Under the pieces are notes generated by a model. That model had not been told where the DNA came from. It did not search any database and saw nothing but the letters and a program-made list of their open reading frames with translations. A stretch of 54,109 bases of DNA. Source: a virus. The position numbers were made by a program, and so were the translations under genes. Where the stretch lies: the IMG/VR virus record IMGVR_UViG_3300024343_000019, positions 1 to 54,109 of that record. One strand, written 5' to 3'. Of this stretch, positions 9,539 through 44,500 are shown piece after piece; the stretch's first letter is position 1, and each line of letters starts with the position of its first letter.

Positions 9539-9619
9539 TTCGCTTTTATATCAAAACAGGGATTGAACCTGTGCCGATTCCTTAGAAGGGAATTGCTCTA
9601 CCGCTGAGCTATTTGCGAA
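9539..9619 (-). ncRNA. tRNA-Arg(UCU)-like domain embedded in the large RNA
   Basis: The minus strand folds as a tRNA body. The D-stem is GCTC/GAGC with a GG-containing loop. The anticodon stem is ATTCC/GGAAT with loop CTTCTAA, giving anticodon TCT at 9586-9584. The T-arm is ACAGG-TTCAATC-CCTGT. The acceptor stem is abnormal: only AAA/TTT stacks directly, then a 9-nt bulge (GATATAAAA), then TTCGC/GCGAA. No CCA follows. The domain is enclosed by CTGGGACAG (9642-9634) pairing with CTGTCCCGG (9535-9527). It therefore looks like a structural tRNA mimic within the larger RNA and not a free tRNA gene, although processing cannot be excluded. Confidence 0.75.
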
Positions 9620-14107: not shown

Positions 14108-14311
14108 TTATTCAGCGTCTCCAGGACTATACATATCCTTAAATTGCTCTACTTCTCGCTGATGTTCAGCACGTTTCATTTCACGACTATTGCGCATTTT
14201 ATTAATATGCTTTAGCGTTAAACGTGGGCGGCGAGTGTCATCAATTTTCCAAGTGCCATACTCGTCATCTTCTGCTTTACGTGTTCCGTTATCTACTTCT
14301 TTAAATCTCAT
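14108..14311 (-). CDS. small basic protein between portal and core genes (67 aa)
   Basis: I do not recognise this protein. The start chosen is the ATG at 14311, which overlaps the end of the portal gene by 11 bases; an upstream in-frame start at 14362 would lie deep inside the portal gene. The protein (MRFKEVDNGTRKAEDDEYGT...) is highly charged, with a basic middle (RRPRLTLKHINKMRNSREMK) and no membrane segment. It occupies the position of T4 gene 67 but lacks its acidic character, while the next gene down looks like gp67. A head-assembly role is plausible only from position. Confidence 0.65.
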   Translation of the reverse strand: MRFKEVDNGTRKAEDDEYGTWKIDDTRRPRLTLKHINKMRNSREMKRAEHQREVEQFKDMYSPGDAE

Positions 14312-15971
14312 TTTCTGCTCCCCCTGTGGTGCCGCCAAGTGGTGATTCACCGCCTGCTTCAATATCTAAATCTCCGCCTAGGTCCTCGCCCTCTTCGCCA
14401 GTATCAAATTCTGTTGGTTCAAACCCTTCAACATCACCGGCGCGGACACCTAGCCCACCTAGTTCACCTTTGGCATCAAACCCGTCTGATCCTTCGTGAT
14501 CTCCACTTTCTTCACGCCACATGCGCTCGTTTTCTTTAATCTCATCTTCGTTCAAGCCCAAGTACTTGCTGAATAGGAATCTACGGCTTAGATAACTTAC
14601 GCCTTCTAAGCTACCAAATACACTGGCACGTGCTGCTTCAATTTCAATCTCACGGTACTGACTAAAGCTCTGTGGCTCAGTAAAGTGTAAGTCAAAAAGA
14701 CTACTTGGAATTTCAATACCTTTGTGTTTAAGGAAACGTTTAAATTCTTTATCTAAACTTGGCTGTAGAACTAACTGTAGTCGCTCACAATATTTACTGA
14801 AACGGAATTCCTGAATAAGTGCCGTTCCTACTTTACCGTCTTGATATGTTGCCGTACCATCCTCTGGACCTGTTGGTAGATAGCTACTTGGAATACGTAA
14901 ACCACGCATTAGTTTGTTGTTGAAATACTTTAGGTCGTCAATCTCACCCAAGTTGTCGCCGCCTGGCAACACTTCAACTTTACTACCACGCCCTTCTGCG
15001 GTTTGAGCGAAGAAATAGTCTTCCATAATACTTAATGGGTTGTATGCTGCATCAATAATATTTGTGCCACCGCCTGTTTTATTTGGAATACGTGTCTGGT
15101 GTACTTCGTTCTTAACACGCTCAACAAAACCCATTGCTTTGTGTGCTGGCATGTTACCAACGTCAATGTAGAACACACGGCGCTCTGGCGCACGTTGAAC
15201 ACGATAGATAATAATACTATCTTCCAGTAGTTCCTTTTGCTTGTATACTTTAAAAATGCTGTCTAAGATACTATTGCCAAATGGCCAGTTAGCACTCATA
15301 CCATCTGTTAGTGCAATGTGTACAACGTGTGCTGCGTCAACTGCATACTCAGTATTGTTTGAACTATAGCCGCCCTGATAAACACCTGATTGTGCTGACA
15401 GTGCTGTAGTAAATGACGTTGAACCTGCACCAGCCATGTTGTTTAGCTTTTTAGTATCAGTAGTAACTAAATCTGTTAAATTTAGGTTGATATTTTTTAT
15501 CATATACTGATCAATTTCTTTGCCTTTGCTCTCGTTGACAATGGCTTTGCTCACATCAGCTGGATCAACCCAGATTAGTTTATATGTCTCTGGATCACGA
15601 ATAAACAACTGATCGCCGTATTTGATAGATGAACGGAATACCCCAAACATTCTGCGTTCCCAATCATTAATATTGCACCACTGATTCAATGCTGTAGTGA
15701 TAGCATTTACTTCGCTTTCAGTTGCATCATCCTTGTAATGTATTTCAAAAGGCAGGCGGGTGTCTGGATTTGTTTGTGTGGCAAATTCAGCGATAGTATC
15801 CAGTGCTGCGTTAATCTCACTGTCCATATCCATTTGGTCATACTGTGTATAACGCTCAACACGATTAGGCTGCCCGGAGTAAACCTCAGGCAACCAGCTT
15901 TGCCATCTATTTGCTCTAGCACGAATTCCATTGCTAGGCTCGTATTTTGTAAAATGCTTTTTCCAGCTCAT
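14301..15971 (-). CDS. 20: portal vertex protein gp20
   Basis: This is the dodecameric portal at the tail vertex through which DNA is packaged. The 556 residues carry the T4-like portal landmarks: YDQMDMDSEINAALDTIAEF (about residues 44-63), FRSSIKYGDQLFIRDPE, RAPERRVFYIDVGNMPAHKA, the region around YNPLSIMEDYFFAQTAEGRG, and LRIPSSYLPTGPEDGTATYQ. The C-terminus is acidic and Gly-rich (EGEDLGGDLDIEAGGESP), as in relatives. Length matches T4 gp20 (524 aa). The ribosome-binding site is weak. A late-like element lies about 25 bp upstream, so it probably has its own late transcript in addition to read-through from the tail genes. Confidence 0.96.
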   Translation of the reverse strand: MSWKKHFTKYEPSNGIRARANRWQSWLPEVYSGQPNRVERYTQYDQMDMDSEINAALDTIAEFATQTNPDTRLPFEIHYKDDATESEVNAITTALNQWCNINDWERRMFGVFRSSIKYGDQLFIRDPETYKLIWVDPADVSKAIVNESKGKEIDQYMIKNINLNLTDLVTTDTKKLNNMAGAGSTSFTTALSAQSGVYQGGYSSNNTEYAVDAAHVVHIALTDGMSANWPFGNSILDSIFKVYKQKELLEDSIIIYRVQRAPERRVFYIDVGNMPAHKAMGFVERVKNEVHQTRIPNKTGGGTNIIDAAYNPLSIMEDYFFAQTAEGRGSKVEVLPGGDNLGEIDDLKYFNNKLMRGLRIPSSYLPTGPEDGTATYQDGKVGTALIQEFRFSKYCERLQLVLQPSLDKEFKRFLKHKGIEIPSSLFDLHFTEPQSFSQYREIEIEAARASVFGSLEGVSYLSRRFLFSKYLGLNEDEIKENERMWREESGDHEGSDGFDAKGELGGLGVRAGDVEGFEPTEFDTGEEGEDLGGDLDIEAGGESPLGGTTGGAENEI

Positions 15972-16014: not shown

Positions 16015-18429
16015 TTATGATCTCAGTGGATCATTCAGTCTGCCATAATGCTTGACAACATCTTCCAATTGTCTTAATGTGTTTAAATAGTTGTTTTTAA
16101 TGGCGGCGGCTTCTTCCAATGCAGACTTTAGTCCACTGTTATTTGTGTTTCTACCAGTTGTGCTAGTTGATTCTGGATATTCAAGTCTACTAAGTGTTCT
16201 ATTAACTCTTGGAGTTACATCTACTGAATTACTAATGTTTAGAGTATTTGATTTAGTAGAATCAATATTATTTACTGGAGACATTATCTGCCCCGAATTT
16301 AACGAACCAAGTGCTGCGGTCGCTTGTCCTATTGCTGCTATCATTGGCGCCATATTGAACATGCCCATTGAATCATCGTTAGAGAAAATACGACCCGCTG
16401 TTTGTGGTACAAATAATTCACCCATGCCACCAGGACGATTTTCACCAACAATATAAGGGGTATTAGCGGAAACATTACCACCAGAGAATTGACCTTCAGG
16501 CATATACATATATTGTCCAATATCGGCTAGCTGTTCTGGAAGTCGGTAAACCTTTTGGTTTAAAATAGGATGTATTGCAACTTCAAGAATTGATGTGTCA
16601 TACCCATGATCATCAAGTAGATTTTGATCATATGGAACAGGCTGCATACTATTATATTCTGATCTTATGCCTTGTAAATCTGCGCCCAAGTTGCTGTATG
16701 CTACTACTTGCATCATATTTTCTACTCTACTTGTATAATCAGATTGTGATAAAGGAGTAGCAATAGGCACTGAATGTTCTTCTCTATCTTTAAACCAATC
16801 AACAGCATCAAGCATAACACTAGCTAATGTTTCAGAAACATTTGCAAGATCATCTAGTGGAAACGTAATACGTTCTTGTAGTTTCATAAATGATTCTGTA
16901 ATTTTGTTCATTGCCACTGTTGCTGGTCCTGAAGCTGCAAGGGCGGCTTGTGATTCTCTAATCTTTGCTTCTAGTTCAGATCCAGAAGCATCAATAAGAT
17001 TTCTAAATTGTGTGGATACTTGTAAAGAGCCTGCACTAATAGCCATTATGCTTTCCAAGTACGGGTTGCTTGCGTCTGCTGATAGACGTGCTAGATCAAC
17101 ACCGGTGTCTTGTAAATCTGCGTAAGATTTTAAAATAAAGTTTAGTATATCACCACCAGCTACTTTACCAGTTCGAACGGCTTGATTGATGCCGTCTATG
17201 AAACTACTATCCATAGAATCAAAGGCACCAAGTAAGTCTGGGTTTGTTGCCATTAATACGCCTCTAACATCAAAATCTTCTATATTTTCAGCACTTCTAA
17301 AGGCTTCTCTACTGATAGCGTCCATTAGCTGCTGCCCAGGAGCGCCCATTTCTTCTCCTGCCATGGCAAATTGTGTTACTAGAGATTCAAAGAGATCTGC
17401 TTGTTGTACACTGCCTGATTCTCGCATTATTTTTAGTGCTGCGGCGGTTTCAGGATCACTGATTGATGCCATACGTTTCTGCAGAATTTCATCTCTGCTT
17501 TGTCCAGTTAATGATGCTAACGCTGTTGTTTCTAACATTAGTGTTTTGTAACTGTTTGCTAACGGTTCTTGAGCACCTATAGTATCTCTGTTTAGTCTAC
17601 CAGTTAGACGTGCTATGTTAATATACTCAGCAAATGATCTTGCCATTTGCTCACTACTTAAACCAAAATCACCTATTACGTTACTTGAATCATTTAAATC
17701 GTTAAAGAATTGTAAGAATGTATCAGTACCACTAGAGACACCATGTCCTAGTGCTTGTATACCAGCACCATATTCAGAAACAATTTTACTCATCTGTGTA
17801 TATGAAATACCAGCTTCTATTGATCTCTGATATAAATTATGGTAGGCACGTGATCCTTCAAAGAAAATAGCACCAGAATTAATCATTGTTCGCTGTGCTT
17901 CTTCAAACTGTTCTAATTTTGCTACGTTAAAACCTAAAAGTGCCGCTACTACATCACCACCTAGGTCGGCGGCAGAACTGCTAAGTTTTCCAAATGTTGA
18001 CTTTAAAAACGCTGCGCCACGCTCAGAGCCGCCTACTAATTCACCTATTCCTTTGCCTAATCCACTTGCTGCTGACTTAGATAGATCTAGGAAAGTTGAC
18101 AATGGTTTTTCAGTGTTGTTTAATTTATCTATTAAACCAGCAGTGCTGCTAGCTAAACCTTTAACAAATCGTTCACGGCTTTTTTCTTCCGCTTTAGCAG
18201 TGTCTCTCTGGTTTTTAACAATTCTATCAACCGCGTCTTTAAATGTTTTTTCTGCCGAAGATGTATCGAGATTTATTTTATAAACTTCTTCAACTAGCTT
18301 TTTATCTAAACTATAATTTAGTCCAAGCTGTGCCGCCAGCATCTCCATAGTGCCTTCACTGGCCCATGCTGGAACGGGCACTGTTGTGCCGTCTGGTAGT
18401 GTTATATTATAAACGTCTTTACCTGCCAT
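16015..18429 (-). CDS. tape-measure-like virion protein 3, no hydrolase domain (804 aa)
   Basis: It is a paralogue of the next two genes. The shared block is about residues 175-345: 'QFEEAQRTMINSGAIFFEGS' aligns with the matching '...RTM.N.GL......Y..LR...' segments, then SSEQMARSFAEYINIARLTG and SLTGQSRDEILQKRMASISD. The N-terminus differs (DVYNITLPDGTTVPVPAWAS). Ala/Gly-rich helical stretches (residues 110-170) could insert in membranes, as tape measures do. The C-terminal part has a Gly/Pro segment (TPYIVGENRPGGMGELFVPQ), familiar from phage tape measures, and ends in a helix. Unlike its paralogues it shows no peptidoglycan-cleaving motif. The ATG overlaps the stop of the preceding gene by one base (TAATG). 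A tail-interior location is inferred. Confidence 0.65.
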   Translation of the reverse strand: MAGKDVYNITLPDGTTVPVPAWASEGTMEMLAAQLGLNYSLDKKLVEEVYKINLDTSSAEKTFKDAVDRIVKNQRDTAKAEEKSRERFVKGLASSTAGLIDKLNNTEKPLSTFLDLSKSAASGLGKGIGELVGGSERGAAFLKSTFGKLSSSAADLGGDVVAALLGFNVAKLEQFEEAQRTMINSGAIFFEGSRAYHNLYQRSIEAGISYTQMSKIVSEYGAGIQALGHGVSSGTDTFLQFFNDLNDSSNVIGDFGLSSEQMARSFAEYINIARLTGRLNRDTIGAQEPLANSYKTLMLETTALASLTGQSRDEILQKRMASISDPETAAALKIMRESGSVQQADLFESLVTQFAMAGEEMGAPGQQLMDAISREAFRSAENIEDFDVRGVLMATNPDLLGAFDSMDSSFIDGINQAVRTGKVAGGDILNFILKSYADLQDTGVDLARLSADASNPYLESIMAISAGSLQVSTQFRNLIDASGSELEAKIRESQAALAASGPATVAMNKITESFMKLQERITFPLDDLANVSETLASVMLDAVDWFKDREEHSVPIATPLSQSDYTSRVENMMQVVAYSNLGADLQGIRSEYNSMQPVPYDQNLLDDHGYDTSILEVAIHPILNQKVYRLPEQLADIGQYMYMPEGQFSGGNVSANTPYIVGENRPGGMGELFVPQTAGRIFSNDDSMGMFNMAPMIAAIGQATAALGSLNSGQIMSPVNNIDSTKSNTLNISNSVDVTPRVNRTLSRLEYPESTSTTGRNTNNSGLKSALEEAAAIKNNYLNTLRQLEDVVKHYGRLNDPLRS

Positions 18430-21083
18430 TATCTCGTTAATTCCAGAGTGCTGTTCTGTCTTCTAATTTCTTCAACAAGTTTAAGAGCTTCCTCAACTAT
18501 TGCTGGGTTGGTCACTGTTAATTCTCTTATTACATTATCGATATCTTCCTCAGTATTTATTGTATCAGAATCACCAGTATTTTTTGGAGTACCGTCTGTA
18601 TTGTGTGTAGCACCATATTGTCTATCCCACGTGCTTTGTGCGCTGCGAGGACTACTCCAAGGGCGAGATGGAACAGTTTCTGTTGGAGTTAAAGTAGGAG
18701 TAGTGTTAGATGGAGTAATTGTTTCCGCTGTTACTAGACTTCTACTCGCTGCATAATCTGCACGTGCTGCCTGTAACGCTGTAGCAACTTCTTGAACACT
18801 GTGACTAGCACGGTTTCCGCTGCCGTAGTAACTCATACCTGTTCTTGGATCTGGAGCACTGGCCCATTCCATAGCAAAGTCCAGCATCGCTGCTTCTAGA
18901 TTGTCACTCTCACCTCTGATATATGCTGAAAGATTCCTACGTTTGGTATAGCCATCTTCTGCACCCACTAGAAGAAGTGTGCCAAGTTTGTCTTGATTTT
19001 CAGGAGTAAACTTATCTGTAAGTTTTAATCCACTGTGTGGCCAGATTTCTTGCATTGTTTCAGGTATGATCTGATAACGTCCTACTGCGAATAATCTATT
19101 TGGATTAGCAGCGTCACCAATGCTTTGCAGCATGAATATTTCGGCAAACGTCATATCAGTCAATGATTTGCCATTTCTTATAGTATTCATAGTGCTTCCA
19201 ACAATAGTATTGTTTATTGTTCCGCGGTTAGAAGCCGCGTAACTTCCTTCACCTTTACCAATAAATGCTAGAATACCACCTTCACGCTGTAGCGCCTGTA
19301 TTTCTTCAGCAGTTGAATCGTGTATTTCTAATGGTACAAAACCAGTACCAGTGTAACTATATCCAGATCTACGTGCATAGTCTTCCATAAATGCCTGTGC
19401 TTCAGCAGGAGTCATTCCTTCTATCTGTTCCATAACAGAACGTCTTCTTATACTTTCTTGTGTGGCTGCGCTTCTACTTGTTTCATTTCTCTGTTCAACT
19501 ACTCTTGATATATCAGTTATTTCTTCATCACTCATGCCGGCTAGATAACCAAATAGAGACGTTAGTTTAGAGAAGGCAGTGTTAATATTACCAATACTAG
19601 GCGTCATTGAGTCATGGATCTCCAACAACGCAGTTCTCATGTTATCCATTGCTATAACGGCATCATCAGCGCCGCCTGTTATAGTTTCAGCAATTGTTTC
19701 AATTCCAGCAGTTAGTTCAGCCCCGCTTGCTTTTATGAATGCATCTGGTACCACTTGTGCCATTGCTTGAATTTGCACAGCCCCTTCGTTTTCTGGGGTA
19801 TAAGTTTCCAGTGGCGGAACATTTTGTATTGCAATTATAAGTTTTTGCCAGTCTGTTGTTAACTGGTCAGGGCTTGTATAAGAACCAGTAATACTGGTTG
19901 TAAATATTTCTGAAACCATGTTAGCAATTTCAGGACCAAGAATTTGGAATTGCCTAAATATTTCTGATGAGATATTATCTATAGCAGATTCATTAATATT
20001 AACGTCCATTTGCGCACGAGTTAAACCATCAAGTAGGCCTTTACTGACATCTTCACCTAGCATAGGTAAAAGCATAGATAATTGTCCAAACGAAGTTCTT
20101 GCTCGTTCAGTTGCACCTTCTCCATATGTTTCTGACATATATTGTGCATTTTTATTAAAAGCAATAATGGCATCTGAATCAGACAATGCTGTTCTTCTCA
20201 TATCCAACAAATTGTCTCTCTGTTGTCCAGTTAATTCAGCATAGCGGGTTGCTAACGCCGCGCTTGTCTGAAAGCCTTTGCTTATTCTTAGCTTGGCAGT
20301 CTCATTTAATTCTGTTATCTCATTTAAACTGTTAAGTAATGTTGCTTCTTCAGCAAGTCTAACCATCAACTCCTTGCCGCGATATCCAAAACGTCCTAGA
20401 CTATCATTCTTACTGTAAGATTCTACAAAGTCAGAAAAATTAGTGAATCCACTTACTGAATCATTAGCTAAACTTGATATAGTTTTTCCATAATTTCCCA
20501 ACAATGTCATTGCTTCAGCTTGGCCTAAGCCTATGCCGGCAAAATTATCACGCAGTGTTCTGTATATTGATTGATCAGTGGCAATTAACCCATAGTCAAT
20601 CATTATTCTAGCAGTTTTTTCTTGATCTTTGGCAAAATTTAGCATAATTTTAAGAAGCGTAGCTGACCCCGCAAGACCTAATGCAGCTAAATCTATGCCA
20701 CGTAATGCCCCGCCTAAACCTCTTATTTTTCTTGTGCCATCAGCAGCGGCATCAGTTACATCACGTGCTGACCATGCTATTTCCTCAATTGCACCAGCAA
20801 ATCCTCCAATTGGATCTGCACTGCTTACTAGTTTATCTAAAAGACTGTTGGTTCTGGCTGATAGTTTTTTTGCAGCTATTAAACTTTTATTTTCCTTAAA
20901 TGCTGCTAATACTTCATTTGCAAGTTTATCCGGATTCAGATCTTCTCCTGTTTTTAATTTGGATATAGCTTGTGTTATAAGAATATTACTAGCGCCTTGA
21001 ATTTTAACTGCTTCAATTAAAACAGCGTCCAATGCCCAGGGATATATTTTAAAAATAGTATTAATTTGATTTTCTAAACTCAT
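18429..21083 (-). CDS. tape-measure-like protein 2 with lambda-R-type muramidase domain (884 aa)
   Basis: The N-terminal 330 residues match its two neighbours (helical; KDQEKTARIMIDYGLIATDQ, ELTGQQRDNLLDMRRTALSD). A lysozyme-like domain at about residues 604-775 has the features of the lambda endolysin (lytic transglycosylase) fold: a candidate catalytic Glu612 in GKGEGSY, VGRYQIIPETM (667-677), TPENQDKL, and AMEWASAPDPRTGMSYYG. The C-terminus is Thr/Ser/Pro-rich and then helical. This suggests a virion protein that cuts glycan strands as the tail enters the envelope. Its ATG overlaps the previous stop (ATGA), so all three are coupled. The hydrolase is supported by several motif positions; the tape-measure role is inferred. 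Confidence 0.75.
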   Translation of the reverse strand: MSLENQINTIFKIYPWALDAVLIEAVKIQGASNILITQAISKLKTGEDLNPDKLANEVLAAFKENKSLIAAKKLSARTNSLLDKLVSSADPIGGFAGAIEEIAWSARDVTDAAADGTRKIRGLGGALRGIDLAALGLAGSATLLKIMLNFAKDQEKTARIMIDYGLIATDQSIYRTLRDNFAGIGLGQAEAMTLLGNYGKTISSLANDSVSGFTNFSDFVESYSKNDSLGRFGYRGKELMVRLAEEATLLNSLNEITELNETAKLRISKGFQTSAALATRYAELTGQQRDNLLDMRRTALSDSDAIIAFNKNAQYMSETYGEGATERARTSFGQLSMLLPMLGEDVSKGLLDGLTRAQMDVNINESAIDNISSEIFRQFQILGPEIANMVSEIFTTSITGSYTSPDQLTTDWQKLIIAIQNVPPLETYTPENEGAVQIQAMAQVVPDAFIKASGAELTAGIETIAETITGGADDAVIAMDNMRTALLEIHDSMTPSIGNINTAFSKLTSLFGYLAGMSDEEITDISRVVEQRNETSRSAATQESIRRRSVMEQIEGMTPAEAQAFMEDYARRSGYSYTGTGFVPLEIHDSTAEEIQALQREGGILAFIGKGEGSYAASNRGTINNTIVGSTMNTIRNGKSLTDMTFAEIFMLQSIGDAANPNRLFAVGRYQIIPETMQEIWPHSGLKLTDKFTPENQDKLGTLLLVGAEDGYTKRRNLSAYIRGESDNLEAAMLDFAMEWASAPDPRTGMSYYGSGNRASHSVQEVATALQAARADYAASRSLVTAETITPSNTTPTLTPTETVPSRPWSSPRSAQSTWDRQYGATHNTDGTPKNTGDSDTINTEEDIDNVIRELTVTNPAIVEEALKLVEEIRRQNSTLELTR

Positions 21084-23836
21084 GATACTGCCCCCGCTGT
21101 TATATCATAATTTTGGACAATCATTGCAATAGCAAGCATTCTTGCCGCAGTTATTTCACTGTTATCTAATTCAGCTTGCATGAGCTCGCGTAGTTCAGGT
21201 GTCAAGCTGATATGATCTTCGTCATCCGTTGTGTCTACTTCACTATCATCAATATTTCCTGCGGGACGGTCTATAATATTTGCTCCAAAGCCCAGCGGGG
21301 TAATATCAATTCCAGCATCACTAAATGTTTTTAAAAGATTGTTATCTAGTCCCTGTATTCTATTAAATTCTGACAGTCGGGCGCCAGTCAGTGTTCTAAT
21401 ATTTCCCTGCTCGTCAAAAAATAATTCATCAAGTTGTGTAGAATATTCCATGTGCTGACGGAACGCTGCCATAATCTGATCATCAGTATAAGTTGGTTCT
21501 TCGCCAATTTGATTTATTCTCAGTGTTGTATCATCTAAGGATCGTGTACCTACTTGTGTATTAGCATAAACGTCTGCTAGGAAGCCACCTGTGCCTTCGG
21601 CACCCCACGTTGCCTCAGCACCAAAGCCAACGTGCATAGTTTGTGTTCCCATATATCCTTCACCAGCACCAATACCAGTTGCTCCCAATTGTCTAGCAAT
21701 AGCTGCAAAATTTGAGAATACTGCGTGGCCCTCAGATGTACTAAAATCATAGTTTTGATTTGTCTGGGGATTTACTAAATTCAAATCAGCGGCGCCGCCG
21801 GCGTCATGTCGTGTAGAACCTTTGCGTACAGCGACTCCGTTTAGATAATATGTAGGACTGTCACCACTTGTGTTTGTTTTAGTTCCTGTTGCCGCTTGAT
21901 AGTCAGCCATTGACATTTGCCCGCCACTGGTAACTCTAACATCAACACCTACTTCTGCGGCCGCGGCCTGTAATATATTCATTAGATCTTGGTTAATAGG
22001 ACCTTTTCTTACAGTTGTACCACTTTGTGCTTCAATAACATTACCACCCATACCTTCTGGTGTTGCACGGCGCATTGCTGGTATTTGTCCGGTTGTATAT
22101 GCTCCGCCACTTCCTCCTTGCGCACCAGAAGTTGATAAATCACTTGCTTCTACTGGAGGCACTAGTGCGCCAGTTTCAGCTGATCCGCCTCTACTTAATC
22201 CACGCGGACCATTCCTGCGTGACGGTCCTGATGTAGTTGAAATATAACTGTCTCCGCCAGGTTCGCCAAATCCAAATGTTCCGCTGAATATGTTAGTAAG
22301 CCACTCTGCTATATTTGAAAAATAAGTTATGGCACGTGCAGAGTTTTCATAATTTGGTTCCATCACGTCAATTAATTCTCTGAATGCAATCCTTAGATTG
22401 TCCATTGCGTCAATTGAGGAGTCTGCTGCTTCAGAATAAAAACTAGATGCACGTTGTAATGATTCAAATTCTGTTCTAGTGGCTGTTAAATAATTTTCTG
22501 GTGCAATTTGCGCTCTGGCTTGTAGATCTCTAGCTAATTTCAGTTCAGGCGTGTCTATTTGTGTATCTATTACTGGTGTTTCTTTAACAGTGAATGTAAA
22601 GTCTCTCAGTCTAGCAAATAGTTCACCGCCCTTTAGTGATCCTGTTATACCATCCTGCATCATTGATATAAATTGTGTTCGTGCATCATCACCCAATAGA
22701 ATTAGAGCATTACTTAACTCTCCAGACATATTGTTTAAAAAGTTTGTATCAAAAGGGAAATCATATAACGCACGATTCATTGTATCAGAAACAAGATTGG
22801 CAAAATCATTTCCAAACAGAGATGTTAGCTGTGTTTTTAATTCTTCATTAAATTGGTATACATTATCTTTTGCATTTTCGCCAAAACGTTCTGTCAGCAT
22901 TGCTGACGCTTTGCCCATAGCTAAACGAAAGTCTATATCGTCATTGGCTTCTTTTCTTATATTGTTAACTGAACTACGCTGTACACCCATTAATTCAGCT
23001 ATAGCATATGTGTATTCAGAACTTCTTTTAAATCTTGCCAATAATTTAGACGATGACGACAAATTAACCATGTCTATAGATCCAGCACGAAACATCATTT
23101 CTGCTTCTTCACTCAGTCGTCTCATCAATTCACTATTTGAATATCCGTAATCATTAATAATGCTATCGTTATTGTGTATAGTTCCTGTTAATGCTACTAG
23201 ACTTGATATTGAATCATAAGTGCCAGATCTCATATTTGCATAGAGCGGCATAAACTCCTTGTACAATGTCGTTGTTTCTTCTAAACTTAATCCAATATCA
23301 GCAACCGTGTCTCTCAGCTGAGTATACAATTTTAAATCGCCAACCACCAATCCGTAGTTTATCATACTTCTGACAGTTTGTTCCTGTGCGGTTAAAATTT
23401 TACCGTAGATACCCATAACGCCTGCTACTGTCGCTATGCTACTAGTTGCTGCGTCACCAACCCAACCTAGAGCTTTCCAACCACCTGGCAGGCGTTTTGC
23501 TGCATCCATGACGGGATCAACTGCTTTATCAAGAAAACCCGCCCCCATTTCTATTAAATCTGAAACGCCGCCCAGCGGATCATTATCACGTGATAAAGAT
23601 TCAATAACGGATAATGAAGTTTCTTTAGCCGTCTTTATTCCTTTAAGGTTATCAGTTGTCTTTTTAACCTTTGACAACTCTTTATTTCGTTTGGTGTGGT
23701 TTTTGTTGAGTGTATCTATGGCACGTTTAATTAAATTATTATCTGCTCTGACATGTGAAAGTGCTTGGGACAGAGTTTTTTCTGTGACCCATGGATATTT
23801 TGAGTTAATTTTGCTTAATTCATGTCCAATATCCAC
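21080..23836 (-). CDS. tape-measure-like protein 1 with M15-type peptidase domain (918 aa)
   Basis: It starts at a GTG (23836) with AAGGG about 10 bases upstream; no in-frame ATG lies nearby. Residues 1-330 are the shared helical module (ELSKINSKYPWVTEK, EQTVRSMINYGLVVGDL, ELMGVQRSSVNNIRKEANDD). A Gly/Ser/Arg-rich linker runs from about 520 to 600. Residues about 611-750 form a D-Ala-D-Ala peptidase-like domain with zinc ligands His677 (STRHDAGG), Asp684 (GAADL) and His735 (TMHVGFG), the M15 / hedgehog-type arrangement. It would cleave peptidoglycan peptides during infection. It is the first gene of the coupled trio and is divergent from gp26, with which it shares an intergenic region of about 75 bp. 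Confidence 0.75.
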   Translation of the reverse strand: MDIGHELSKINSKYPWVTEKTLSQALSHVRADNNLIKRAIDTLNKNHTKRNKELSKVKKTTDNLKGIKTAKETSLSVIESLSRDNDPLGGVSDLIEMGAGFLDKAVDPVMDAAKRLPGGWKALGWVGDAATSSIATVAGVMGIYGKILTAQEQTVRSMINYGLVVGDLKLYTQLRDTVADIGLSLEETTTLYKEFMPLYANMRSGTYDSISSLVALTGTIHNNDSIINDYGYSNSELMRRLSEEAEMMFRAGSIDMVNLSSSSKLLARFKRSSEYTYAIAELMGVQRSSVNNIRKEANDDIDFRLAMGKASAMLTERFGENAKDNVYQFNEELKTQLTSLFGNDFANLVSDTMNRALYDFPFDTNFLNNMSGELSNALILLGDDARTQFISMMQDGITGSLKGGELFARLRDFTFTVKETPVIDTQIDTPELKLARDLQARAQIAPENYLTATRTEFESLQRASSFYSEAADSSIDAMDNLRIAFRELIDVMEPNYENSARAITYFSNIAEWLTNIFSGTFGFGEPGGDSYISTTSGPSRRNGPRGLSRGGSAETGALVPPVEASDLSTSGAQGGSGGAYTTGQIPAMRRATPEGMGGNVIEAQSGTTVRKGPINQDLMNILQAAAAEVGVDVRVTSGGQMSMADYQAATGTKTNTSGDSPTYYLNGVAVRKGSTRHDAGGAADLNLVNPQTNQNYDFSTSEGHAVFSNFAAIARQLGATGIGAGEGYMGTQTMHVGFGAEATWGAEGTGGFLADVYANTQVGTRSLDDTTLRINQIGEEPTYTDDQIMAAFRQHMEYSTQLDELFFDEQGNIRTLTGARLSEFNRIQGLDNNLLKTFSDAGIDITPLGFGANIIDRPAGNIDDSEVDTTDDEDHISLTPELRELMQAELDNSEITAARMLAIAMIVQNYDITAGAVS

Positions 23837-23875: not shown

Positions 23876-23911
23876 GCAAATACTCATAGTATTTATTTGG
23901 AGAAAACCCCT

Positions 23912-24742
23912 ATGACAAACCCCTTAGTACAGGCTTATAGAAAGCCTTCGCTATATGTCACACTGCCAAGTGGTGGAAAATATTACGATCCTAAACCAAA
24001 ACTAAGTGTTGATGGAGACTTAGCAATCTACCCAATGACTGCTAGAGATGAACTTATCACAAAAACACCTGACGCACTGTTTAATGGTGAGGCAACTGTT
24101 TCTATTATTCGCAGTTGTTGTCCAGATATCCCAAATCCAGCACAGACACCAGTTAATGATCTTTTGGTTATTTTACTAGGTATTAGACAGGCAACATATG
24201 GAAAAGAAATCAGTGTTGATATCAATTGCCCAGCGTGTAATGAAATGAATATGATGATGGCTGATGCAAACCGTATTTTGGCTTCAGCAAAATCAACAAC
24301 ACTAAGTGATAAGATTAATATGGATAATGGTTTTGTTATTCATGTTAAACCTTATAACTTGGAAGATCGTACCATCTTACAAATCCAACAAATCAAACAG
24401 AAAAAAATGATTGAAGGTTTGGTTCGCGAAGGCGTAAGCGACGAAGATCGTACCAAAATTTTTGGACAAACTTTTGTTGAATTAGCTGAACTAACAGTTG
24501 ACCTTATTGCTAACTCAATATATGCAGTAAAGGCTCCTGAATCTGAAGAGATTACTGATCGTGAAATAATCAAGGAATGGTTGCAGAGTATTACTAAAAA
24601 GGATTACGATCAGATTAAAGATTTGGTTGAGAAACTTTCTGATCCCTCACTTGATACTTCTTTTAATGCATCTTGTCAGCACTGTGGACATAACTGGAAA
24701 ACAGACATTGATCTTGATATAGCAAATTTTTTCGTAGGCTGA
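23912..24742 (+). CDS. 26: gp26-like baseplate hub / tail assembly protein
   Basis: The start is the ATG at 23912 with GGAG nine bases upstream; an in-frame TTG 15 bases earlier is less likely. The 276-aa protein has the gp26-family pattern: LYVTLPSGGKYYDP near the N-terminus, PMTARDELITKTPDALFNGE (about residues 42-61) and IIRSCCPDIPNP. Two CxxC pairs, CPAC (about 106-109) and CQHC (about 255-258), could form a zinc ribbon. In T4 gp26 is needed for hub assembly. Here the gene precedes a gp51-like ORF in the -1 frame and ends on a slippery T-TTT-TTC directly before the stop. By position beside tape-measure-like genes it may act as a tail assembly chaperone of the lambda G/GT kind; that is inferred. 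Confidence 0.85.
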   Translation: MTNPLVQAYRKPSLYVTLPSGGKYYDPKPKLSVDGDLAIYPMTARDELITKTPDALFNGEATVSIIRSCCPDIPNPAQTPVNDLLVILLGIRQATYGKEISVDINCPACNEMNMMMADANRILASAKSTTLSDKINMDNGFVIHVKPYNLEDRTILQIQQIKQKKMIEGLVREGVSDEDRTKIFGQTFVELAELTVDLIANSIYAVKAPESEEITDREIIKEWLQSITKKDYDQIKDLVEKLSDPSLDTSFNASCQHCGHNWKTDIDLDIANFFVG

Positions 24743-33707: not shown

Positions 33708-35515
33708 TGACTATATCAGAAAATTGGCTATCAACAGTTAACAGCCCAACTTACAATTTTACATTATATCTTGTAAAAGCAGAAGTTGCAAATGCTCCAG
33801 AGCAGTTATCAAATGATTCATCATTTCTTAACACTGGTAGAGCTTACATAATTGCGAAGTCAGGTTCTGAAACAACATATAATATAGACAACGTTGTCTT
33901 TACTTCAACACTTGTTCCAGGAGAACGAAGTGGAAACGTACAGATTTCTAATATAAACTTTGATATAACAGAGGTATTAGGATTTGACTTATTGGACCGC
34001 GTGTTATCTGTTAGTAGTGATTTTGGATTTAACAACATAACAGACGCGGCGTTTGTTTTAAAATTAGAATTCAAAGGCAGGAACCCTGTTACAGGATCAT
34101 TTGCATTTTACCCTGGTATATTTTTCTATCCAATACGTTTAAACGCAATAAGTGCATCTGTTGGCCCTGATGGCGCCAGATATAACATTACCGCTGTAAT
34201 GAATCCATCCATAGCACTAACGCAAGCCCGTGTAGAGACAGACATTAGTTTTACTGGTGTAAGAACAGTAAGTGACTACCTAAATAATTTACAATCTAGA
34301 TTAAACCAATACGAATCAGACATCAGAAAAAGCGACCAGAATGATATAACTGAACCTGGACGTAAACATTCAATAAGAATGGGATCAAGATTTGCAAGTG
34401 CTTTAGCTAATGCTGAATTTGCTGGCCTAGCATCAAGCAGTGATGGTACTGCAACTGCGTTAGAGAAAGCTGAAACTCTCTCCTTTTCAGTCAATGTCAA
34501 TAGCAGTGTACCTACTGTTATATCAGACACATTGACTAAAGAAATACCAGCATATCAAGAAATGTTAAGAATCGCAACGCAGACTAGGTTATCAGGTGCG
34601 GCTCGATCAGAGGGATTCTCGCAGAACGCATATCCATATATTGTTGTTAACATGGATATAGAATATGGGACAACGACAGATATAGATCCGCACACACTAC
34701 AGCGTATAGATACAATAGTATATACAGTTGAGTTATTTTATTCAATGACCAGGCCCGATTCTGAAGTACCATCTGATGAAGTTAGCTATAGGACAGATCC
34801 ATACCGTCAAGCTCGTTTATTTCAACAAATGCGTCAGTTTATGGCTAAGAGGTATAGTTATTTGTTTAGCGGTGATAATACTGAAATTTTAAATCTAGAT
34901 TTAAACTATGACATGCTTTATTTTTCTGCCAAAGCACCATCTAGCGGATTGAATTATACAAATCCTGCACAGGATTTTCAACCACAGGTGGCAGAACCAG
35001 CAATCAGGTCAGCTGGTGGATTTTTATCTGGCAGGACAGTTGTTCCGCGGATTAGAGGGTTAATAACACCTGTCTATGATTATACAAATGCTAGTGCATA
35101 TAGACAACGTGTTTCAGAAACAACAGGATCAGTTGATCCTGTTGTTACTACTGAAGCAAAAGAATATTTTGGACAATTTAATAAGGTAATTAATTTACAG
35201 ATAACCATTAAGGGTGATCCGTTCTGGATGGGACTGCCTGGAACAGACACGTCTGGTGGAACACTGTCAAATGCACAAGATGTTCTTAAAAATGATTCAC
35301 TAATAGGACTAGTAAACTTCCTACCGCACGAATCTGTAACTTATACTACCAATAGACATCGAGGACGTATGGATCCATTTACTACTGGGGTATATAGAGT
35401 TACGCAAATATCAAGTAGATTCCAGATGGGAAAATTTACACAAACTTTATCAACTACAAAGCACACTGAATTAACAACGGCGTTAGTAGAAAACGCATTT
35501 ATGGGGCTATTATAA
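33707..35515 (+). CDS. baseplate hub protein (gp27-like position)
   Basis: The 602-aa protein has beta-rich tube-like segments at the N-terminus (PTYNFTLYLVKAEVANAPEQ, GRAYIIAKSGSETTYNIDNV) and a hub-type C-terminal domain with NLQITIKGDPFWMGLPG, YTTNRHRGRMDPFTTGVYRV and TQISSRFQMGKFTQTLST. The 'I.GDP.W' and 'Y.V..I...F..G.FTQ.L' patterns are typical of the hub proteins that hold the central spike. It sits directly upstream of the gp5-like spike and overlaps it by one base, as gp27 partners gp5. It is much longer than T4 gp27 (391 aa), with a helical, Ser-rich insertion at about residues 190-290. The name is by function and position, not close similarity. Confidence 0.7.
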   Translation: MTISENWLSTVNSPTYNFTLYLVKAEVANAPEQLSNDSSFLNTGRAYIIAKSGSETTYNIDNVVFTSTLVPGERSGNVQISNINFDITEVLGFDLLDRVLSVSSDFGFNNITDAAFVLKLEFKGRNPVTGSFAFYPGIFFYPIRLNAISASVGPDGARYNITAVMNPSIALTQARVETDISFTGVRTVSDYLNNLQSRLNQYESDIRKSDQNDITEPGRKHSIRMGSRFASALANAEFAGLASSSDGTATALEKAETLSFSVNVNSSVPTVISDTLTKEIPAYQEMLRIATQTRLSGAARSEGFSQNAYPYIVVNMDIEYGTTTDIDPHTLQRIDTIVYTVELFYSMTRPDSEVPSDEVSYRTDPYRQARLFQQMRQFMAKRYSYLFSGDNTEILNLDLNYDMLYFSAKAPSSGLNYTNPAQDFQPQVAEPAIRSAGGFLSGRTVVPRIRGLITPVYDYTNASAYRQRVSETTGSVDPVVTTEAKEYFGQFNKVINLQITIKGDPFWMGLPGTDTSGGTLSNAQDVLKNDSLIGLVNFLPHESVTYTTNRHRGRMDPFTTGVYRVTQISSRFQMGKFTQTLSTTKHTELTTALVENAFMGLL

Positions 35516-36717
35516 TGGGCGGAGATGTAAAAACAACAGGTATAAACATTCCAGAACGTGGTAGGCGCGGTGATACACGCAATGTAAACTTGCCAAATGG
35601 AACATACACTGCTACTGTAGTATCAAACGAAGATGTAAATCGTACAGGACGCATTACGGTTAGAATTGGTGAACACGGATCTCCAGAAGACAATCCTGCT
35701 GAACACGTTGTACTACTCATGTCACCTATGGGCGGCTCTAATGGACACAAGGCATCGTCAGCGGATGTAGAAGATTCAAATACTACCGCACAGTCTTTTG
35801 GTATGTGGCCGCAGCCACCGGCGCCTGGTACAAACGTAGTAGTACAGTTTAGTCCAGGTATGCAGCAGGGCATATTAATGGGGTCATTACTTACTGCACA
35901 AACCAACCATAATATGGGAGGCAATGCCAGTTCTGAAGATAAGGATGGAAACATTGGACCAGTTGGCGAACAGAACCCATATGACACTGATCCACAAACA
36001 CGCCCAACTGACACCGCACGTGGTGAACAACTAGCTGAACAAGGTTTGGAAGATGATTACGTTCGTGGACACAGTATGAGTAGTGCTAGACGTGAAAGTC
36101 CAAGCAAAGTTTTTGGTATTACAACTGCCGGCGGCGCTGTATTAACTATGGATGATGGCGCCGCTGATGGTAGCGGCAGTCAGAACATACGCATACGTAC
36201 ACCGGGCGGCGGACAAATACTTATTGACGACAGCACGGGCATAGTATTCATTACTAACCAGAGCGGTAGCACACATATTGAAATGAACGCTGCCGGCTGT
36301 ATTGACATTTTTAGTGAGAATAGTTTTAGCGTTGCATCAGCACAGGACATCAATTTCCACGCACAAGGCAATATTAACATGCAAGCTGATCAAGGTATCA
36401 ATATTCAAGCAGGCGGCGATGGTATAAGAGCTGCAACTGATGGACCACTGCATATGAAATCAACAGGTGTTGCCAACGTTCAAAGTGATGCTTCACTAAG
36501 TTTGAAATCCTCTGCTGCTATTAAAATGACAGCACCCAAGGTTAATTCAAACAGCGGAGCAAGTGCTGACGCTGCTGAAAAGCCAACCCCAAATGGCCTA
36601 GTAGAAAACAGTGGCGTGTCACAAAGCGCAGCTAGCCGTGTTCCAGAGCGTCATCCATGGAACGGTGTGCCTGGAGTTCAAGAATCATTTACAACAGGGC
36701 AAGGGAAACCAGTATAA
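35515..36717 (+). CDS. 5: central spike protein (gp5-like, without lysozyme domain)
   Basis: This is the trimeric spike at the tip of the tube. Residues about 25-130 are an OB-fold (TYTATVVSNEDVNRTGRITV, WPQPPAPGTNVVVQFSPG, GILMGSLL), as in gp5/VgrG. Residues about 190-330 form a beta-helix needle with repeating strands (GGGQILIDDSTGIVFITNQS, DINFHAQGNINMQADQGINI). T4 gp5 has a lysozyme domain between these two parts; here the linker holds only a short polar stretch, so the enzyme is absent. A separate lysozyme-like gene follows directly. The Gly/Pro-rich C-terminus lacks an obvious metal-binding tip, so a separate tip protein may be needed. Confidence 0.85.
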   Translation: MGGDVKTTGINIPERGRRGDTRNVNLPNGTYTATVVSNEDVNRTGRITVRIGEHGSPEDNPAEHVVLLMSPMGGSNGHKASSADVEDSNTTAQSFGMWPQPPAPGTNVVVQFSPGMQQGILMGSLLTAQTNHNMGGNASSEDKDGNIGPVGEQNPYDTDPQTRPTDTARGEQLAEQGLEDDYVRGHSMSSARRESPSKVFGITTAGGAVLTMDDGAADGSGSQNIRIRTPGGGQILIDDSTGIVFITNQSGSTHIEMNAAGCIDIFSENSFSVASAQDINFHAQGNINMQADQGINIQAGGDGIRAATDGPLHMKSTGVANVQSDASLSLKSSAAIKMTAPKVNSNSGASADAAEKPTPNGLVENSGVSQSAASRVPERHPWNGVPGVQESFTTGQGKPV

Positions 36718-37451
36718 TGCCTAATTATGTAGTACGCCCAACAACTGTAACAAGTGAAATGCTAAAAGACTTTAGCATATATCCCATCACTGATGAAACA
36801 GCCGTTACTGAACTAAAAGAATTCCGTACACTAGAAGCAAGCCCACTACTACTTAACTTTGCGTTGCGACAGTACAAATGGACACCCTATCAGTATGCTG
36901 ATGCTGAAGGAGTCAAACGCATTGGCTACAATACAACAAAAGGTAATGATGGTGTAGGACTAACGGAAACCCAGTCATACAGCTATTGGTTGGAAGATTT
37001 TAAAAATAAAGAAAGACGTTTTAAGAGCTTGTTTCCACTTGACAGTATGACGCAATCACAGTATGATGCTATGGTAAGCCTTCATTACTTTACGGGAAGA
37101 TTTGAATATGTAGGAACAGACATCTGTAGATATGATCTCAGAGACTACATTAGAGAGCGCAAGTGGGATCATATTGGAACAGTATTCATTTACAATGGTG
37201 CTGATCGTATGAGAACACAAGCAGAAGCAAAGATAATGATGCTTGGAAATTATGGAAGATACACAGACAGAAGTTTGTTAAAGGAACGTGGACTACAGTT
37301 AATCAGAGGGAATTATCCAAACAGAATCAAAGACGCACTCGCACGGCAACAGGCTGAATACATATATTACGTAGAGACGCGGCGATTCTTACCCGGATTA
37401 ACACAGGCTAGAAAACGGCAGATAGTAGATCAAGAACAGCGGTTAAGTTAA
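36717..37451 (+). CDS. lysozyme-like protein lacking the usual catalytic Glu (244 aa)
   Basis: The start is the ATG at 36717, overlapping the gp5 stop by one base. Residues about 40-145 follow the T4-lysozyme/GH24 layout: RQYKWTPYQYADAEGVKRIG YNTTKG, LTETQSYSYWLEDF, and SMTQSQYDAMVSLHYFTGRF. However, the conserved Glu that normally precedes the first strand (as in 'E-G/L-x-L-x-x-Y') is replaced in LLNFALRQYK. It may therefore be an inactive structural or binding form, or use another residue. The C-terminal 90 residues are helical and basic. Placement right after a gp5 that has lost its lysozyme suggests the domain was split off or replaced. The fold assignment is moderate; inactivity is inferred. 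Confidence 0.6.
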   Translation: MPNYVVRPTTVTSEMLKDFSIYPITDETAVTELKEFRTLEASPLLLNFALRQYKWTPYQYADAEGVKRIGYNTTKGNDGVGLTETQSYSYWLEDFKNKERRFKSLFPLDSMTQSQYDAMVSLHYFTGRFEYVGTDICRYDLRDYIRERKWDHIGTVFIYNGADRMRTQAEAKIMMLGNYGRYTDRSLLKERGLQLIRGNYPNRIKDALARQQAEYIYYVETRRFLPGLTQARKRQIVDQEQRLS

Positions 37452-37461
37452 GGATTACAAA

Positions 37462-38019
37462 ATGGCTAGGGTGTTAATACTAAACGCAGATGCACAACCG
37501 CTAAGTTTACTACCACTTAGTACCATTAGCTGGCAAAACGCTGTTAAAGCATACTTTCAAGATAAAGTAAAAATACTCCACAGTTATGACCGCGTATTAC
37601 ATGCTGCAAACTTCCAAATGCAGATGCCCAGCATTGTTATGCTAAATGAGTATCAAAAGTCTCCAGCAACCGCAAAATTCACACGTAAGAACTTATATCT
37701 GCGTGACAGTAATCAGTGCCAATACTGTGGCAAAAGATTTAGTTCAGGTGACCTAACCATTGACCACGTGATTCCACGTGCGATGGGCGGACGTACTACT
37801 TGGATGAATACTGTTAGTGCTTGTATGCCCTGTAATAGTCGCAAAGGTAAACAACTTCTGCGACCATTGCGTGATCCATTCCGTCCAAGCTGGCACGAAA
37901 TGAACAGCAATGCTAAGAAATTTGACGTTATTATACCAGATCCCGCCTGGCAATACTACATACAATGGCCAGAAGAACATTTAATAGTAGACGAACGTCA
38001 TAACGGAATGTCAAACTAA
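37462..38019 (+). CDS. HNH endonuclease (185 aa)
   Basis: It has a zinc-stabilised HNH motif: CQYCGKRF (first zinc pair), DHVIPRAMGGRTTW (catalytic His in DHV), MNTVSACMPCNSRKGK (second zinc pair and Asn). The N-terminal 65 residues (VLILNADAQPLSLLPLSTIS WQNAVKAYFQD) form the small domain usual for stand-alone phage and bacterial HNH proteins of this type. It interrupts a baseplate operon and has a strong hairpin directly downstream, which fits a free-standing homing endonuclease that inserts between structural genes. A packaging or repair role is the alternative. Confidence 0.88.
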   Translation: MARVLILNADAQPLSLLPLSTISWQNAVKAYFQDKVKILHSYDRVLHAANFQMQMPSIVMLNEYQKSPATAKFTRKNLYLRDSNQCQYCGKRFSSGDLTIDHVIPRAMGGRTTWMNTVSACMPCNSRKGKQLLRPLRDPFRPSWHEMNSNAKKFDVIIPDPAWQYYIQWPEEHLIVDERHNGMSN

Positions 38020-41549: not shown

Positions 41550-44500
41550 ATGTCAGATTTTAAATCAGATAATAACGAAAAAGCGGTAAACAAAACTAGA
41601 GCAGGTCGACGACCAGTAGTAAACATTGATACATCTGAATTCTTACCTAAGACTTTTAGAACTCCGCTAAATCGTAAATGGTTAGACGCTACACTAAATC
41701 GGATGGTTTCAAAAGGAGATCTTGAAGATATTCATGGCTTTGTAGGAAAATATACTGGAGAAGTACTGGACAAATACGACGATGTATATATTAACACTGG
41801 ATACGAAAATCAACTAAGCGCAGCAATTGTCTCTGAATTTAATGACGTTGTGGTAGACCATATATCAGGCAATGATATCCTTAATAATATCAATTACAAT
41901 TTTGAAAACTATTCTCTCAATGGCGCATATAATAGTCAAGCATATGTTTTTGCTCCACCCATCAATATTGATAAGTTCTTAAATTACAGTCAGTATTTCT
42001 GGGCTCCTATATTGCCAATAATTGAAATAATTGATAATAGTGCTCCAGAAATTCTGGATCCTACTGTTGTATACGCTGGCAGACCATTCGCATCATTTAC
42101 AACAACTGACGGTCCAATAACATTACATAATGGTATGATCGTAAAATTTGTTGGTAGCAGATGGCCAGTAGACATTATTAATAATGTATATCTGGTAACC
42201 GGTGTTGGAAAAAATATACGTTTTAAAATTTTAACAACGACAATTTCAGTTACTGATATTTCAGAGACATACGATCTGGAGTTAGAAGTCTATACTAGCG
42301 TAGTACCACATACAGACAAAATATCTGGAGAGTTTTCTGTTAATAATAAAAAGGATTATATAGTTATTAATAATTCTGACGAAATTTCGTCTGCATGGTC
42401 ACGTGCAAACTATTGGGTTCATAGAGAGACATTATCATACATTCTAGAATTGAATAGCTCATTTGATATCAAGTCAGTCTTAAAGACAGAAAACCAAGCT
42501 AAACGCCCAATCATTGAATTTAATCCATTTATAGTTATGATGGACAACGCATATGTTTCTTCTGTAACAAGAGATGAGCCAAAATTAACCCATTACAAGG
42601 GCAAGGTTAATTATCTTCTAGGAGTCAATCATTTGCCAGACTCTGGTTCTCTTGGAGGTGGTAATGCGCAGTATACTACTGTCATTGGAGACACAGTTGA
42701 AATTAATGGTGAATACGTTAAGGTAGACAGTTTAGTCGCATATCAATTGGATTCATATTCAGGTGAATTTGGAATATTCTTAATTAAAAGATCCGGCCAA
42801 GTAGAACTTTATGAAAATCTATCCCCTAACAATACATTTACAGTAATAAACGATTATGCATCTGGTGGCACGTATAACCAGCGAGATCTTTATGTAGATC
42901 AGGATTATCGTTTCCAGATATCTCAAGTAAAACTAGCACCAAATACTGCGCCAATGTTTAAGCTAGCGGACAAAAATAACGTATGGCTAGACGATTTCGA
43001 CAGTTCAACTTTTACAGGCAGTAAGATCTTTTCTTATAAATCCAGTAACAGTTCAATAATTGACAGCGAATTGGGTTTTCCGCTCGCGTATAAAGATGCT
43101 GGTCTAAAAAGTGAAATATTATATGAAAACAATATAATAAACGAGAGACACACTTATCAAGAGGCATCAAGCAACGTTGAAAAAGAAATCAAAGGATACT
43201 ATTTCTTTAAAATAGGAAACAATTTTTATTCATCATATTTCCCTTCAGCATTTTCTTTAGGTGCTAAAGAGCATGTTCAGGTAATTGCAGATTCAGGTTC
43301 AGATGTTGTTATTCCTTACGGTACTGATAATTGGAGCGTTAATAAAGAATACCTTGTTTTTAATTTAAATGGAAAAATTTCAACCAGCGAAATTTTAACA
43401 GAGGGCAGTTATAATAGATCTAGAACTAATCAAACAAACATCACTTTGGGCGGCGGTAAGACATATACATTCCATAATTTACTGCCAGATGAAGAACTAA
43501 AGTTTTGGGATGTAGACACTGGTAATGATATTGAAACAATACCTGGCTACGAAGTTACAGTAGTAAGAGATGGTCCGTACATATATCTCCAGGTACCTGA
43601 ATCATTTATCAGTCTGAACATCCTTTATGGAACTGTAGATATTAACAACAGAGGCATTATAACAGTTGTTCCTAATACTGAAGATTTCTATCACCACCTT
43701 TACGTCAATGGTGTACATTTAGATGTAAGTGCGTATTCAATTAGTTCTAATTCAATAGTTATACCGTCTGCTCAATTAGTCGATGGTAAAAATATTATTG
43801 ATTTAGAATACTATAGTAACAGCAATACAAATACTGGCAATACTGAGCTTCCAGAAATTCATAACCATAATAGTAATAATCTTCCACTCAGAGAATTTAC
43901 TATTAGCGATACGCATGAACACTGGGAAAGTTTAATACGTTTTACACCTGGTTTTACGGGCCAGACATATGGAGAAAACAATTATCATCTATCACTACAA
44001 AATAACGCATATGGTGGTGAAATATTCATGCATGAAGATATTAGTATTATGCATGACTATGCCTTTTCAAGTAATGAATTAAACATTTCAACTGCTATAG
44101 AAAATCAAGCAGCTGATTGGTATTCCTTTAAGAAACGTTTTATAAATCAGGTTAAACGAATTGCTATTAAAAATAACATAGAGTCAGTAAGTAAACTAGT
44201 TGACGATGTGTGCAATAATATTATCAAAGTATCAGATAATAATAATCTTCACGCAGACTCCAATATGTATTTCCCACACAAGAGTCATTATAGAGAATAC
44301 GTATATGTTCCTGGAGATACGTATAGATCCGCAAACGTACACTTCAATATTGACGAACACAAACAAGATCATATTTACATCTATGTTGTCCACAATCGCG
44401 ATTCTGATAATATACCTGTTGAAGAAATGCTTCAATATAATATTGATTATGAGATTAACGGATCAGTAATAAACATTAGTAGTGAGCTGGTATTGAATCC

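Follow-up and report, generated by a model that had tools for sequence, protein, structure and literature searches.

A tape measure is usually regarded as one protein encoded by one gene. The tail channel of JBD30 holds three identical tape measure chains (PMC11445458), and tape measure proteins with wall hydrolases have been described in T5 (pb2), TM4 and phiIPLA35 (PMC6116005). Among the T4-like phages, gp29 is reported to become unrecognisable by Blast in the schizo- and exo-T4 phages (PMC2147016). The closest described relatives of the locus reported here are jumbo phages with one homologous gene, encoding 709-1074 aa, directly before the portal gene: PA5oct, GAP32, CBB, 121Q, Munch, XaC1, Kaldavass, SNUABM_47, Atu_ph07, Phosso and SCTP-2, in most of which this gene also adjoins a divergent gp26. 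It is annotated as 'putative tape measure protein' in SNUABM_47, and its product is a virion component of PA5oct as detected by ESI-MS/MS. The proteome table of CBB likewise has CBB_251 as a virion protein, together with 29 and 50.14; this phage also encodes a T4-type lysozyme in a gene of its own next to gp5 (PMC5259590). The literature searched, most subscription journals lying outside its coverage, contained no description of paralogous tape measures. Here we describe a jumbo phage fragment in which the same slot is occupied by three paralogues, two of them carrying different putative wall-cutting domains.

Results

Three overlapping paralogues between gp26 and the portal

The window, by which we mean the whole 54,109-nucleotide stretch of IMG/VR virus record IMGVR_UViG_3300024343_000019, is part of a T4-like jumbo phage known here from its genes alone. 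T4-type genes for the portal, head protease, major head protein, gp26, gp46/47, late sigma factor, gp5, gp25 and gp6 were recognised; the portal shares 54% identity with its counterparts in Sinorhizobium phage Phosso and PA5oct, and the best matches of the gp6-like baseplate wedge protein come from the RaK2/121Q/PA5oct/Atu_ph07 jumbo group. The gp6 gene is followed by a gene for a 3512-aa virion structural protein (41550-52088, plus strand; phrog_10938, 4.5e-182), and a lone tRNA-Arg (tct) gene lies at 9548-9618 on the minus strand. The slot of interest is bordered on its conserved left side by a divergent gp26-like baseplate hub protein (23897..24742, plus strand; PF12322 3.6e-20, phrog_150 1.3e-23) and on its conserved right side by the portal, gp20 (14301..15971, minus strand; PF07230 2.7e-109). 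In one relative (L041:7995-9707) the portal gene is seemingly split into two ORFs of 304 and 253 aa, for which a frameshift, an insertion or an assembly error is possible.

Between these borders lie three genes, all on the minus strand, in the order gp26, P3, P2, P1, portal. P3, next to gp26, encodes 918 aa from a GTG start (21080..23836); P2, in the middle, encodes 884 aa (18429..21083); and P1, next to the portal, encodes 804 aa (16015..18429). The three ORFs are thus present at the originally claimed sizes and with the claimed overlaps, which amount to 4 nt for P3/P2 and 1 nt for P2/P1. They share an N-terminal helical module of about 500 aa, as had been proposed from short motifs that we found in register (LTGQSRD at P1:307, LTGQQRD at P2:284 and MGVQRSSV at P3:283), and their paralogy is borne out by BLASTP (1e-46 for P2/P3, 5e-14 for P1/P2 and 7e-9 for P1/P3) and by Smith-Waterman Z scores against 200 shuffles (70, 22 and 17 for the same pairs). 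HHalign, the comparison suggested with the original prediction, likewise found similarity among the N-terminal modules (P2/P3 99.7%, P1 vs P2+P3 96.6%), the profile of an unrelated gp27-like control being flat. Searching the PDB with the sequences of P1, P2 and P3 gave no useful match.

Relationship to tape measure proteins

P1–P3 share with the gp26-portal structural family of jumbo phages (including phrog_14121) both a homologous core and the slot between gp26 and gp20. Aligned together against the single-gene family of the cultured relatives they scored 98% (E 1.4e-13) by HHalign, and with larger sets the P1-type and P2/3-type proteins scored 98.3% and 97.9%, respectively. The AlphaFold models of P2 and P3 are confident in the core only, which spans residues ~150-510 of P2 (19554..20636) and ~148-500 of P3 (22337..23395; pLDDT mostly 70-97). 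In unsupervised Foldseek searches both models matched Atu_ph07 gp197 best (1.7e-8 for P2 and 7.1e-8 for P3), followed by many tape measure and minor tail proteins; in BFVD these included the ChaoS9 tape measure (6.9e-5) and many others, with low TM-scores, mostly 0.15-0.35. VIA-align of the P3 model returned short helical matches only and was uninformative. A C-terminal GExGPE motif was considered as a tape hallmark and dropped, as it is present in few members only and absent from lambda gpH.

With a helix rise of 1.5 Å per residue as reference, the rise calculated for four single-copy relatives lies near it, at 1.61-1.77 Å over a narrow range of lengths. The underlying tail and protein lengths are 136 nm and 845 aa for Atu_ph07, 136 nm and 798 aa for PA5oct, ~123 nm and 722 aa for CBB, and 126.7 nm and 716 aa for SNUABM_47 (tail lengths from PMC6102473, PMC3936114, PMC5259590 and PMC7760394). 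HHalign detected no homology of P1–P3 to T4 gp29, gp27 or gp28, or to the KVP40 candidate at the equivalent position; T4 gp29 and the KVP40 candidate did not match each other either. Taken together, the claim of a tape-measure-like family is supported, and we hold it very probable that P1–P3 are paralogous tape-measure-type proteins with hydrolase domains. In Atu_ph07 the label 'tail length tape measure protein' is attached to gp701 (L106:20510-21127), which has only some 205 aa beside a 136-nm tail; gp701 is likely misannotated, gp197 being the better tape candidate.

Stepwise duplication and length matching

We fetched loci from IMG/VR by portal-based and family-based scans and removed near-identical ones. 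Loci with one, two or three copies were found, and the distinct multi-copy lineages numbered 32 (28 with two copies and four with three), in 31 of which the genes overlap or directly adjoin at their ends. In the tree, the portal-proximal copies all grouped into one clade (support 100) and the single genes of the relatives into another (96), P1 being the orthologue of that single gene. The first and second distal copies of three-copy phages, to which P3 and P2 belong, respectively, each made up a clade of their own (95 and 99), with weak support for where the second of these is placed (61, 65). Since each copy position forms its own clade, the tree is read as at least two successive duplications, from one to two to three copies. 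The proposed gene triplication thus holds as duplication, not as a single event: one- and two-copy intermediates exist.

Over the 32 lineages, in which the copies range from 627 to 1257 aa, the lengths of proximal and distal copies were strongly correlated (r=0.93), and the mean relative length difference was 5% within a lineage vs 19% for permuted pairs. The correlation persisted in independent contrasts on the family tree (r=0.85, 31 contrasts; 0 of 20,000 permutations as high), and in control comparisons the length of the proximal copy showed r~0 with the lengths of portal and gp26. No hydrolase was recognised in any copy of 21 of the 32 multi-copy lineages, part of which were scanned with Pfam; in these the correlation was again r=0.85 (n=21), dropping to r=0.70 in the hydrolase-bearing lineages alone. 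Mean copy lengths were 670 and 688 aa without a recognised hydrolase vs 971 and 916 aa with hydrolases. This matching points to selection for equal length, as is expected for copies in one tail, from which we infer their co-assembly, a conclusion that we consider reasonably likely to be right; shared selection on domain content could instead have produced it.

Different hydrolase domains on P2 and P3

The lambda-R-like muramidase proposed for P2 was confirmed. The domain covers residues ~601-788 (18720..19283, minus strand), matches phrog_30077 (3.5e-21) and phrog_1200 'endolysin' (1.8e-12), and is 43-47% identical to cyanophage homologues, one of which is annotated 'lambda lysozyme'. HHalign against lambda R (73%, 3e-5) aligned GRYQ..QD..WASLP, and the conserved Glu of lambda-R-type lysozymes is present as E612, invariant in five sequences. 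The M15-type peptidase proposed for P3 stood in part: H677, D684 and H735 are exactly where they had been quoted, in a zinc motif HxxxxxxD...H (HDAGGAAD...MHVGF) within residues ~591-760 (21557..22066, minus strand), and homologous stretches occur in relative L022 and in Agrobacterium phage OLIVR1, whose virion protein has the same residues, but support from family profiles was lacking, with no Pfam match at E<=1 and no PDB match. Because no profile of either database recognises the domain, which is also poorly modelled (pLDDT mostly under 50), we name it M15-like by motif only and do not file it as M15; it is probably a peptide cutter. P1 has no recognised enzyme, as was predicted for one of the three. 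The gain of two different wall hydrolases by this family is accordingly supported.

Relatives of both domains were also found in other virion proteins. The P3 peptidase domain has kin in OLIVR1 gp022 (L103:4999-7467), and the sole PDB match of the muramidase profile was a '66 kDa protein' (PDB 11mn, 4.5e-4), which at the level of domain similarity suggests exchange between tape proteins and ejection-type proteins.

The window carries, in the copy order P3/P2/P1, an M15-like domain, a lambda-R-like domain and none. Among the other three-copy lineages the corresponding series is VanY (8.6e-22), SLT (1.2e-8) and bare in L124; VanY (2.1e-22), SLT (1.7e-8) and bare in L125; and none recognised, lambda-R-like and bare in L140. 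The order of peptidase, glycan cutter and bare copy therefore recurs in all three of the three-copy lineages with two recognised enzymes, though the enzyme families differ: the glycan-cutting family is not the same, and any relationship between the peptidases is at best distant. Among two-copy phages, lambda-R-like, M15-like or GH19 domains occur on the distal copy, and a VanY-type domain is on the proximal copy in L027, L141 and L164. Judged from these domain assignments, lineages have exchanged enzyme domains and did not acquire them in one event; the predicted duplication 'followed by domain gain' thus keeps its acquired hydrolases and loses its single gain.

A separate lysozyme gene beside gp5

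The gp5-like hub protein (35515..36717, plus strand) gave weak matches to OB and beta-helix models, and no lysozyme domain was found in it. The original prediction that gp5 has lost its lysozyme does not hold as stated: this ORF lacks the domain, but the next one, overlapping its end by about 60 nt (36657..37451, plus strand), encodes a separate lysozyme (PF00959 Phage_lysozyme 6.9e-7, above its cut-off; phrog_7 8.6e-10). Wall cutting at the hub is therefore not absent, and the idea that tape hydrolases make good the loss from gp5 is not needed. Between the lysozyme gene and gp25, among the baseplate genes, lies an HNH endonuclease gene (37462-38019, plus strand; phrog_16726 7.6e-32).

Discussion

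We propose, as the probable explanation of these observations, a duplicated, length-matched, heteromeric tape measure with divided wall-cutting labour, descended from the single tape gene of the gp26-portal slot. P1, P2 and P3 would be made together by coupled translation and would run alongside one another, as a heteromeric ruler, inside the lumen of a single contractile tail, an arrangement that would force equal lengths on them. Upon contraction they would enter the envelope, where at the entry site the C-terminal domain of P3 would cut peptide cross-links and the domain of P2 would cut glycan, P1 as the bare copy keeping the ancestral length-setting and probably channel-forming role. Delivery of both glycan- and peptide-cutting activities by the tail, as originally predicted, is on this domain content plausible. 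More tentatively, the tape may be an obligate heteromer of a peptidase-bearing, a glycosidase-bearing and a bare subunit in the lumen, for example a 1:1:1 trimer in three-copy phages, reached with different enzymes in several lineages and, in cyanophages, in parallel or from very old ancestry.

The orthology of P1 alone to the single gene, together with the presence of hydrolases mainly on distal copies, would also suit an arrangement in which P1 alone is the tape, while P2 and P3 serve, in few copies, as hub or ejected lysins anchored by a tape-derived core that they have kept. We regard this as unlikely, since the 21 of 32 multi-copy lineages without a recognised hydrolase still have copies of equal length (r=0.85) and the proximal copy also bears a peptidase in L027 and L141. 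The whole family might instead consist of ejection proteins located inside the head or at the portal vertex, seeing that the gene adjoins the portal, that the enterobacterial members are classed by PHROG as 'head and packaging, virion structural protein', and that related muramidase and peptidase domains are found in the PDB '66 kDa protein' and in an N4-like virion protein, respectively; the gp26 neighbour, Foldseek matches mostly to tape measure and minor tail proteins, and a protein length that fits tail length make this very improbable, and no stronger candidate for the tape came to light (Atu_ph07 gp701 has about 205 aa). That each tail is built on one paralogue, giving a mixed virion population with different wall cutters, is just as improbable: matched lengths would keep all tails equal and the paralogues do diverge in enzyme content, but joint use is a better fit to adjacent, coupled genes whose activities keep one order across lineages, and no precedent was found in the literature searched.

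If the heteromeric tape is real, a tail can have a mixed ruler, with copies that stay equal in length while swapping enzymes. Such phages would then be a natural experiment for asking by what means the ruler determines length and what number of chains it requires, and the delivery of glycan as well as peptide cutting to the site of entry by some phages would be explained. The large 'hypothetical' or 'endolysin' genes beside gp26 in jumbo phages and cyanophages also acquire a probable function in this way.

Among known systems, T4 gp29 resembles P1–P3 in its tail-length role and its gp26/hub neighbourhood, and differs in being a single copy without a hydrolase and without detectable sequence similarity. 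In Kyanoviridae, two adjacent paralogues (98.8% to each other by HHalign) follow gp26/gp51 (S-SZBM1 66-67, P-RSM6 204-205 and ACG-2014d gp009-gp010; L100-L102). ACG-2014d has VanY (7.4e-10) on the first and a lambda-R-like muramidase on the second, followed by a third, unrelated tail gene. The Kyanoviridae muramidase is 43-46% identical to the P2 domain and is the only part that matches, no homology between their cores and P1–P3 being detected by sequence; they differ further from the window in that the third gene is not a paralogue and gp5 is annotated as tail lysozyme. The pair would thus be either a parallel or a very old relative of the window layout. It is annotated only as hypothetical or endolysin, and its members are candidate cyanophage tape measures. 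The RaK2-like and PA5oct-like single gp26-portal proteins (phrog_14121; PA5oct gp335, CBB_251 and Atu_ph07 gp197) share the core, the slot and a similar length with P1–P3, but are present in one copy, and those members that were scanned with Pfam showed no significant match to a hydrolase, Atu_ph07 gp197 having weak lysin-family matches at 570-754, whereas the window carries three copies, with hydrolases on two of them. T5 pb2, TM4 and phiIPLA35 likewise combine a long helical tail protein with a muralytic domain; there the activity resides on one protein, whereas in the window it is divided, with the peptidase on one paralogue and the muramidase on another.
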